A DNA stretch of 64,000 nucleotides from assembly GCA_030425645.1 (NCBI GenBank), contig JAUHZK010000011.1, forward strand, positions 1-64,000, written 5' to 3'. Every line of letters starts with the position of its first letter. Positions within the stretch are counted from its first letter, which is position 1. Below the pieces are notes generated by a model that was given only the letters and a program-made list of their open reading frames with translations, ran no database searches and was not told the DNA's origin. The stretch is from Gammaproteobacteria bacterium. Lineage in GTDB: Bacteria > Pseudomonadota > Gammaproteobacteria > JAPPPA01. The position numbers were made by a program, and so were the translations under genes. Below, piece after piece: positions 41,207 through 43,314 of this stretch.

Positions 41207-41587
41207 ATGCAAATAACGCTGCTGAAGAACAAACTTCACCGTGCTTGTGTGACCCACGCCGAGTTGGATTACGAAGGTTCCTGCGCCATTGATACGGATT
41301 TGATGGAGCTCGCTGGTATCCAAGAGTACGAACAATTGCACATCTATAACGTTACCAATGGTGAGCGTTTTAGTACTTATGCCATTTGTGCGGAAAAGGG
41401 TTCAAAAGTTATTTCTATTAATGGCGCTGCTGCGCATAAAGCGTCAGTGGGCGACCGCATTATTATTTGTACCTACGCCAGCATGTCTGCGGCTGAGGGA
41501 CAGTCTTATAAACCGGCTTTGGTTTATTTAGACGAGCACAATAATGTGACCGGTACGGCTAATGCGATTCCGGTGCAGGCGGCTTAA
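41207..41587 (+). CDS. panD: Aspartate 1-decarboxylase proenzyme
   Basis: A 126-residue pyruvoyl enzyme making beta-alanine for pantothenate. The self-cleavage site is Gly24-Ser25 in [10 protein letters not shown]; Ser25 becomes the pyruvoyl group. [15 protein letters not shown] precedes it, Lys9 being the conserved catalytic lysine, and [20 protein letters not shown] follows. Length matches E. coli (126). It is followed by a terminator and the large inverted repeat. Confidence 0.97.
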
Positions 41588-41616: not shown

Positions 41617-41646
41617 AAAGGCTCGCTTAGGCGGGCCTTTTTTATT
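41617..41646 (+). terminator. panD terminator
   Basis: AAAGGCTCGC (41617-41626) and GCGGGCCTTT (41631-41640) pair with one T-G around TTAG and run into a T-rich tract. Confidence 0.9.
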
Positions 41647-41665
41647 TGTGCGTGGGGTGACCCGG

Positions 41666-42200
41666 GTCGGTTTCGGCCTTTAGAAGGTTTTATACGCTTT
41701 CGGTAAGTGTGTTGGTTCGGGCCGAGTGACTTTTCTTTGCGTCGCCAAAGAAAAGTAACCAAAAGAAAGGCGATCCCACCATGCGGCCCCTTCGGGGTTC
41801 CCTGCGCTACTCGTCAAATCGAGCGCCTGCGGGAACTCACTCCGCTAACGCTCCGTTCAAACAAGCCGCAGGCTCAATCTCGATTTGACTCCGTTGCTCG
41901 GCCGCATAGAAGGGCAAAGGCACTGCTAACCAACACCGCTGATTGCGTAAAGACTCCCTTCTAAGGCCCCTTTTGCGCAGCTGAGCATCGCAGTGGATTT
42001 TGGACTGAGGGAGCGGCTTGTTTGAGCGTTAGCGAGTTCCCGCGACCGCCAAAATCCGCGAGAAGCGCAAGGGACCGCGAAGCGGCTGCGCGGTTGGCGG
42101 TGGCTTTTTTGGTTACTTTTTTCGCCAAGGAAAAAGTAACTCGGCCTTACCAGTACACTTGCCGAAAGCGAGTAGAACCCTCTAGGGCCGAAACAAGCAC
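41666..42200. repeat. Large imperfect inverted-repeat element with nested hairpins
   Basis: This gene-free stretch is an imperfect palindrome. The left outer arm (about 41666-41775) and right outer arm (about 42105-42200) are inverted copies. They share TTTCGGCC, CGCTTTCGG(T/C)AAGTGT, GGCCGAGT(G/T)ACTTTT and AAAGTAACCAAAA. Inner arms GCGGGAACTC...GCTAACGCTC...CAAACAAGCCGC (41829-41870) recur inverted at 42011-42043 with two short deletions. Each half has its own closing repeat: TCAAATCGAG/CTCGATTTGA (41814, 41879) and GGATTTTGG/CCAAAATCC (41995, 42049). AGAAGGG/CCCTTCT lies at the centre. From memory, similar GTTACTTTT-type blocks recur between genes in other gammaproteobacteria. Reading frames through it look spurious. 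Confidence 0.8.
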
Positions 42201-42222
42201 CAACCAACTTTTTTCAGTGGGT

Positions 42223-43314
42223 TTAGCCGTTGTGCTGCTCCAAAGCCCAAACAATATGCTCCCGAACCAACTCAGAGCAGTCTTCAAGGCGAGCCTTTAA
42301 CGCATCAACGACCGCCTCTGAGGTTTCCGCATTGCCGAGAGCCACAGCGATATTTCTTAACCACAGCTCATAACCCGCCCGCCGCAGCGGCATACCCGCA
42401 GTTTTGTCGTTAAATTCGGTTTCATCCCAACTAAACAACTCGACCAAATTGGCTTGCTCTAGGCCGTGCCGCGGATTGAAATCGGCTTCTCGGCTGGGTT
42501 CGGCGTGGCGGTTCCAGGGGCAGAGTAATTGGCAGTCGTCACAACCAAATATGCGATTGCCGATAGGCTTGCGCATGTCATGTGGAATGCTGCCTTTGTA
42601 TTCAATGGTGAGATAGCTAATGCAGCGTCGTGCGTCTAGTTTGTTAGGCCCAATAATGGCTTGAGTAGGGCATATATCGATGCACTTTGTACAGCTGCCA
42701 CAGTGGTGCTTCTCAAAGACTTCGGTAACCGGTAGGGGTAAGTCGGTAAAGATTTCCCCGAGGAAAAACAAGCTACCTTGTTTGGGGTTAATTAATAGCG
42801 TGTGTTTGCCGATCCACCCAAGCCCGGCATTTCGGGCAAGGGCTTTTTCGAGTACCGGCGCGCTGTCGGCAAATACGCGGTAGCCATGAGCGCCAACAGC
42901 GCCTTCGATCTTCTTCGCAAGGGTGTTTAGTCGGTTGCGTATGACTTTGTGGTAGTCACGACCAAGCGCGTAGCGCGATATGTAGGCCTTGTCTGGGCGG
43001 TCCAGCAGCGCTTGGCTGTGGCTAAGTGAATCGGTGAGGTAGTTCAAACGTACCGATATAACGCGGACCGTACCGGGCAGTAGGGACTCGGGTTTGTGGC
43101 GTTTATCGCCATGCGCGGCCATCCATTGCATATCGCCTTGGTGCCCTTGCGCTAACCATTCCGTCAAATAAGCACTGTCTTCGTCGACTTGCGTGTCGGC
43201 CACGCCAAAGCCGTCAAAGCCGAGTTCTGTGGCCCAGCGCTGAATTTGATTGCGCAGCGCGCCCCAGTCCTGCTGGATGGGCGAAATATTGCGGTTAGTG
43301 GCTGTATCTGACAC
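42223..43314 (-). CDS. queG: Epoxyqueuosine reductase
   Basis: A 363-residue cobalamin-dependent iron-sulfur protein that performs the last step of queuosine synthesis in tRNA. Two 4Fe-4S clusters are read from CGSCTKCIDICPTQAI and GCDDCQLLCPWNRHA. The N-terminal cobalamin-binding domain includes RYALGRDYHKVIRNRL and ALARNAGLGWIGKHTLLI. HEAT-like helices end the chain. It is divergent from nnr with a 75-bp gap, and its 3' end abuts the large inverted repeat. Confidence 0.96.
   Translation of the reverse strand: MSDTATNRNISPIQQDWGALRNQIQRWATELGFDGFGVADTQVDEDSAYLTEWLAQGHQGDMQWMAAHGDKRHKPESLLPGTVRVISVRLNYLTDSLSHSQALLDRPDKAYISRYALGRDYHKVIRNRLNTLAKKIEGAVGAHGYRVFADSAPVLEKALARNAGLGWIGKHTLLINPKQGSLFFLGEIFTDLPLPVTEVFEKHHCGSCTKCIDICPTQAIIGPNKLDARRCISYLTIEYKGSIPHDMRKPIGNRIFGCDDCQLLCPWNRHAEPSREADFNPRHGLEQANLVELFSWDETEFNDKTAGMPLRRAGYELWLRNIAVALGNAETSEAVVDALKARLEDCSELVREHIVWALEQHNG

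Follow-up and report, generated by a model that had tools for sequence, protein, structure and literature searches.

Background

As a rule, a dispersed palindromic repeat of bacteria has a narrow host range and is linked to a transposase that is known. Among those already described, REP sequences are by definition 20-40 bp palindromes headed by GTAG/GTGG (or CGTC) (PMC2817692, PMC3733652), and it has been argued that unlike REP partners (heterodimers) may escape SbcCD (PMC3733652). Among catalogued RNAs, the TwoAYGGAY RNA (Rfam RF01731; Weinberg et al. 2010, PMC2864571) is classed by Rfam as cis-regulatory and shares clan CL00106 with the CsrA-binding sRNA rsmX. Here we describe a non-coding element from a gammaproteobacterium of the JAPPPA01 lineage (assembly GCA_030425645.1), found in a stretch of 64,000 nucleotides, hereafter the window (contig JAUHZK010000011.1, positions 1 to 64,000, forward strand). 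We propose that it is probably a non-autonomous mobile structured repeat belonging to a widespread family.

Results and discussion

Site, extent and anatomy of the element

The genes panD (41207-41587, forward strand) and queG (42223-43314, reverse strand), both confirmed by Pfam, enclose a gap of about 635 bp without a recognisable protein, and frames inside the element matched no Pfam family. This agrees with the initial annotation, made from the sequence of the window, which had seen there no gene and a highly organised palindrome. The strand folds to -299.3 kcal/mol against -201 +/- 6.5 in dinucleotide shuffles (z = -15; 0/100 shuffles as good), and repeat finding recovers inverted arms at 41751-41764/42107-42120 (14 nt, 100%), 41775-41841/42031-42097 (70%) and 41854-41914/41968-42028 (70%). 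The 7-bp central repeat noted earlier is directly readable as AGAAGGG (41908-41914) and CCCTTCT (41956-41962). The palindrome thus lies in the gap as described, but its limits had to be corrected: the ends, read directly and from an alignment of copies, place the palindromic element of about 540 bp at about 41665-42205, just 3' of the panD terminator. It consists of two facing half-units, A on the forward and B on the reverse strand, which are about 67% alike (Table 1).

Each half-unit is about 250 nt long and runs, 5' to 3', through the helix P0, the hairpin H1, and then P2, a small hairpin (hp), P3, P4 and an apical motif near GGAACTCGCTnCGCTCAAACA. P0 is formed by TTCGGCC..GGCCGA and the stem of H1 by GTTACTTTT..AAAAGTAACC, or by GTCTATTTTTG..CAAAAATAGAC in a third type of half, C, described below. 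The closing hairpin previously placed within each half is real and now resolves into the helices P2, hp, P3 and P4. To that description we add a pseudoknot in each half, the H1 loop being complementary to the bases just 3' of CCAAAA. The pairing is TCGCC/GGCGA in A, TTGGCG/CGCCAA in B, AGGCAT/ATGCCT or AAGCAT/ATGCTT in C, and CAGC/GCTG in most A halves of the congener. At least five complementary bases between the loop and the 3' segment occur in 47 of 124 distinct H1 hairpins from public genomes; 500 permutations gave 16.6 such hairpins on average and never more than 30.

Table 1. Features of the element and its immediate surroundings, in window coordinates
Feature	Coordinates	Strand	Basis
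panD intrinsic terminator, just outside the element	41618..41644	+	sequence and congener alignment; kept in the empty site
Whole element: half-unit A (+), 41-nt spacer, half-unit B (-), the halves facing each other	41665..42205	.	ends of homology in the alignment of 11 full copies; empty in congener G001
Left terminal repeat, consensus GCTGGTGnnnGTTTCGGCC, here GGTCGGTTTCGGCC	41665..41678	+	common to the ends of home-genome copies
Half A helix P0, TTCGGCC..GGCCGA around a variable hairpin	41672..41725	+	sequence; kept in A, B and C copies
Half A hairpin H1, GTGACTTTTCTTTG / CAAAGAAAAGTAAC	41726..41759	+	repeat finding, fold, H1 comparison
Half A pseudoknot, loop TCGCC 41742-41746 with GGCGA 41769-41773 across CCAAAA	41742..41773	+	complementarity over 124 hairpins; CAGC/GCTG in half A of the congener
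Half A body: P2 41781-41788/41900-41907, hp, P3 41814-41823/41879-41888, P4 41825-41832/41866-41873	41781..41907	+	covariance model E = 5e-32 (by construction); covariation
Half A apical motif, variant of GGAACTCGCTnCGCTCAAACA	41831..41863	+	motif ACTCGCTnCGCTCAAA 56-78 nt 3' of H1 across phyla
Central spacer, variable, flanked by the 7-bp inverted repeats	41915..41955	.	poor conservation among copies
Half B body: P2 41975-41981/42085-42091, P3 41995-42003/42049-42057	41975..42091	-	covariance model E = 3e-32 (by construction); covariation
Half B hairpin H1, GTTACTTTTTCC../..AAAAAAGTAAC; loop TTGGCG complementary to CGCCAA 3' of CCAAAA	42112..42140	-	H1 comparison
Half B helix P0, CTCGGCC..GGCCGA	42140..42191	-	sequence, alignment
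Right terminal repeat GGGCCGAAACAAGCACCAACC	42185..42205	-	copy alignment

Dispersed copies in the home genome

A DNA search of the home assembly (G000; 16 contigs, 2.75 Mb) with the element recovered 11 full A+B copies in unrelated sites, 87-91% identical, together with several partial and single-half copies. Every full copy comprises the two distinct half types A and B, facing each other, and the copy alignment shows the imperfect terminal repeat at both ends, i.e. terminal inverted repeats are present. The third half type, C, occurs as lone half-units, of which there are at least nine (nine were examined), and a covariance model finds at least 25 body matches in this genome. By crude ORF calling, gaps between convergent genes hold 11/11 full copies, 14 of 15 when partial copies are included, and eight of nine type C units. 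Additional solo terminal repeats were also observed at a distance of about 29-35 bp from four full elements (in the flanks of L002, L004, L008 and L011; e.g. G000 C9:275020-275061), as if elements had inserted beside earlier ends or decayed copies remained.

Compensatory change in the stems

In an alignment drawn from two congeners, the bodies of A, B and C adopt the same fold through different stem sequences, with 92.7% of cells pairing. Both sides have changed in 17 of 28 body pairs, amounting to 84 cells against 27.6 in shuffles (0/500), with at most 16 cells in slid versions; type C alone shows seven doubly changed pairs (0/500 shuffles). Likewise, the innermost H1 pair at a single-half site in Stenotrophomonas is T-A, G-C or C-G depending on the species. 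The fold is thus conserved by compensatory change, and the helix sequences differ among A, B and C, which makes every half a unit that folds by itself, more than the arm of a palindrome. The earlier statement that the substitutions mostly keep pairing is upheld by this strong compensatory change; that the halves are unlike also stands, but they are not merely decayed copies, each having its own within-half stem sequences. Over the stems, G.U and A.C stand at 57 to 63, with no strand bias; single-genome counts of these were left unused because shared ancestry dominates them. The lack of a G.U over A.C bias weakly fits pairing at the level of DNA, the test being a weak one with which a role as RNA is compatible.

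Filled, empty and inverted sites

In the sole congener compared (G001), panD and queG are adjacent (72-74% identity) and separated by a gap of about 70 bp as against 635 bp, with the element absent; related elements (72-86% identity) are carried elsewhere in that genome. Within Stenotrophomonas, the site orthologous to locus L106 is filled in many species, bare in others, where 31-44 bp separate stop codon from stop codon, and partly deleted in one. The interior, scored in both directions, has been inverted in place at this site, about 12 filled loci having it in the reference orientation and about 11 in the flipped one; that is, one natural site carries a half-kilobase palindrome between two genes in both orientations. 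In a few of the loci (L340, L345) the end hairpins and the interior disagree in orientation, as expected from recombination between inverted halves. The second Stenotrophomonas site holds a single half in most species examined and none in L415 and L416. Known GTAG-type REPs (GTAGATCCACGCCATGCGTGGATG) directly adjoin the half-units at this second site (L391-L413), which is a mosaic of repeat families turning over between species. No clean target-site duplication was seen in the home-genome flanks or at a Stenotrophomonas filled/empty site, and empty sites outside the filled Stenotrophomonas species could partly reflect loss.

Distribution across bacteria

The initial annotation had mentioned similar GTTACTTTT blocks in other gammaproteobacteria; such blocks are found there, and far beyond that class. 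With genomes taken one per species, the exact H1 pattern, GTTACTTTTn{4-30}AAAAGTAACCAAAA, is present in at least 119 stretches, whose record titles name Bacteroidota, Bacillota, Pseudomonadota, Desulfobacterota, Nitrospirae, Lentisphaerae, Fusobacteria (Propionigenium) and candidate phyla; a further 14 viral contigs contain it. It is present in 19 of 369 Gammaproteobacteria genomes, as against 0/369 for the reversed pattern, and 35 other genomes hold between 1 and 260 H1 copies each (reversed control 0), the highest numbers per genome being 220 in G371 and 260 in G384. A search of 5,426 E. coli genomes and of phage records returned no match. Across phyla, the orientation relative to the neighbouring gene is mixed (72 same, 59 opposite), and the strict sense orientation in 3'-UTRs suggested by the home genome is accordingly not upheld.

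As the exact-pattern search imposes H1 but not what comes 3' of it, the body was checked separately with a covariance model (R1), for which body sequences of the two congeners were used and H1 was left out, on 724 kb of loci whose sole selection criterion was H1. It gave 19 matches: 15 have an exact H1 on their own strand no more than 150 nt to the 5' side, and another three follow an H1-like hairpin. Among the taxa matched are the Betaproteobacteria Gallionella and Silvimonas (E down to 8e-14), Desulfobacterota (1e-10, 4e-8), the Bacillota family Acidaminococcaceae (1e-5) and Bacteroidota (2.6e-4 and weaker). The apical-loop motif ACTCGCTnCGCTCAAA occurs 12 times in 990 kb, nearly always 56-78 nt 3' of H1 and on the same strand. 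Among 143 sampled gammaproteobacterial genomes, R1 matches at E <= 1e-4 in 24, all from different families except for the two congeners. The architecture is the same from Gammaproteobacteria to Bacteroidota and Bacillota, with hundreds of copies per genome in some, and the model can be used to annotate the repeat in genomes. The most distant phyla (Patescibacteria, Nitrospirae and others) are putative members by virtue of their H1 sequence.

Several of these occurrences deserve individual mention. In G371 (Oscillospiraceae MAG Hs463_bin96; L294-L313), about 220 H1 copies in 1.9 Mb form facing pairs about 880 bp apart, sequence blocks are interchangeable from copy to copy, and many contigs end in the repeat. 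In Pasteurella multocida, a related long palindrome (L334:2440-2960) with H1 and the pseudoknot TCGCC/GGCGA occupies the interval from dapF to a DUF484 gene, immediately upstream of DUF484-xerC; the hairpin at its other end has a different stem sequence. The H1 pattern is also present in the complete chromosome of an SR1 bacterium (L182; CP006913.1), where the body was not recognised; as this genome is complete, that occurrence, at least, is not contamination.

Relationship to the TwoAYGGAY RNA

No Rfam family, TwoAYGGAY included, matches the body or H1 of the present element up to E = 5, and the weak Rfam matches listed for it fall in the panD terminator region. Its relatives L162, L184, L148 and L135 reach the TwoAYGGAY gathering score. 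In L162 and L184, both from Psychromonas, the matches are full-length (168/168), on the opposite strand, and end exactly where H1 starts. L148 has two partial matches in inverted order, one per half, and further partial matches lie inside L135 and L335, the latter below the cut-off. In these relatives TwoAYGGAY appears as the antisense of the repeat body, ending at or near H1 (L162:7253-7458, L184:1364-1572, L148:3914-4504, L135:4286-4454). Judging from these alignments, TwoAYGGAY in the tested loci is best seen as a fragment of the repeat, and may occur elsewhere too. Searches of open-access literature text found the motif letters in no relevant paper, and a survey of stem-loop families in 40 genomes (PMC2267715) has no recognisable description of the element.

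Mobility and competing explanations

The suggestion in the initial annotation of a dispersed structured repeat or non-autonomous mobile unit is supported by the copies, the empty sites and the covariation. A chance duplication-inversion of spacer DNA, unconnected to any family, is scarcely conceivable, given dozens of dispersed homologues with covariation; a chance palindrome is likewise ruled out by the fold z-score and the dispersed copies. A more serious contender, although in our estimate an unlikely one, is that the halves act as transcribed 3'-UTR or cis-regulatory RNA (e.g. CsrA/RsmA-binding or mRNA-stabilising), the palindrome arising because convergent genes each carry one. The preservation of the fold by compensatory change, the cis-regulatory listing of the antisense-body TwoAYGGAY in a clan with rsmX, and the location of nearly all home-genome copies 3' of genes would all suit such a role. 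The mixed orientation across phyla and the absence of a G.U over A.C bias on either strand argue against it, as does the TwoAYGGAY strand, which is opposite to that of the pseudoknot, while 220-260 copies and empty sites fit mobile DNA better.

Among mobile elements, a classical MITE, i.e. an internal-deletion derivative of an IS with the same terminal repeats, would be non-coding and dispersed, with terminal inverted repeats and empty sites, as is the element. We nevertheless regard this origin as improbable: an end-pattern search of the home genome gave 36 matches against 30 for the reversed control, most of them at element copies, with no other element there sharing the ends; no clean target-site duplication could be read; and a fold conserved across phyla is not needed by a deletion remnant. 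The prospects are poorer still for a giant REP/REPIN-like element moved by a resident RAYT of the Y1 family. Its inverted structured halves and intergenic location recall such elements, and the home genome does have one Y1/RAYT-like transposase gene (C2:414125-414451; L233:1200-1920). That gene is, however, flanked by an unrelated palindrome of its own, TGGGACAGACCCAAATGGGTCTGTCCCA; no Y1 match was found in G371, G384 or G378, the first two being the most copy-rich genomes; the GTAG/GTGG (or CGTC) head is absent from both the ends of the element and H1; and the unit exceeds the length of a REP about tenfold (PMC2817692, PMC3733652). With a different palindrome at the home Y1 gene and the most copy-rich genomes lacking a Y1 match, a RAYT is out as the general mover. 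The palindrome at the Y1 gene belongs to a REP-like family of its own, another copy of which lies near L233:2350.

The 134 flanking proteins show no enrichment of any transposase, integrase or reverse transcriptase family. RVT_1 was not found in the copy-carrying genomes G371, G373, G392 and G401, several of the genomes being incomplete MAGs, and is present in others; a resident reverse transcriptase does not seem to be required as the mover. As many of the genomes are MAGs, the absence of an enzyme from them is not final.

Returning to the mobile structured repeat as the preferred explanation, the distribution of the copies suggests that they move. From the want of coding capacity and of a linked enzyme, the copy-rich genomes without Y1 and the lack of a G.U bias, we infer that the fold may be read as single-stranded DNA by a recombinase acting in trans. 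A single-stranded half of about 250 nt folds into P0, the pseudoknotted H1 and the long P2-P3-P4 hairpin, and the 540-bp element is made up of two such halves, unlike in sequence and set face to face; lone halves also occur. An enzyme other than the resident IS200/REP-type one might recognise the folded H1/pseudoknot end and thereby spread the element, with copies surviving mainly in convergent-gene gaps, where they would do the least harm. The unlike halves may persist because SbcCD would cut a perfect palindrome, and their 67% likeness fits the argument made for REP heterodimers (PMC3733652). Recombination between the inverted halves would then flip the interior. More tentatively, and with some doubt on our part, these repeats could represent a phylum-spanning class of mobile DNA with a pseudoknotted single-strand fold in facing pairs, moved by a widely shared enzyme of a kind that has so far had no link to repeats of this sort; TwoAYGGAY would then be an unrecognised fragment of that class. 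A direct question raised by this proposal is which enzyme recognises the H1 pseudoknot.

Comparison with known systems

Like the REP/REPIN/BIME elements associated with RAYTs (PMC2817692, PMC3116915, PMC3733652), the element is intergenic, palindromic, dispersed and often arranged in inverted pairs; unlike REPs, with their 20-40 bp and characteristic head, its half measures about 250 nt and has no Y1 gene tied to it. With bacterial MITEs it shares its non-coding nature, terminal inverted repeats, dispersed copies and empty sites, but it lacks a matching autonomous IS in its own genome and has a conserved, multi-helix, pseudoknotted fold that extends across phyla. The R26 (352 bp) and R200 (320 bp) repeats of Pseudomonas fluorescens (Silby et al. 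2009, PMC2718517), compared by description only, resemble it in size and intergenic dispersal, and relatives of the element occur in the same genus (L135, L189, L213). Finally, whereas TwoAYGGAY is confined to one strand of the body hairpin in some lineages, leaving out H1, the pseudoknot, P0 and the facing pair, in Psychromonas it covers the repeat body on the opposite strand, which places a catalogued RNA family inside a repeat.
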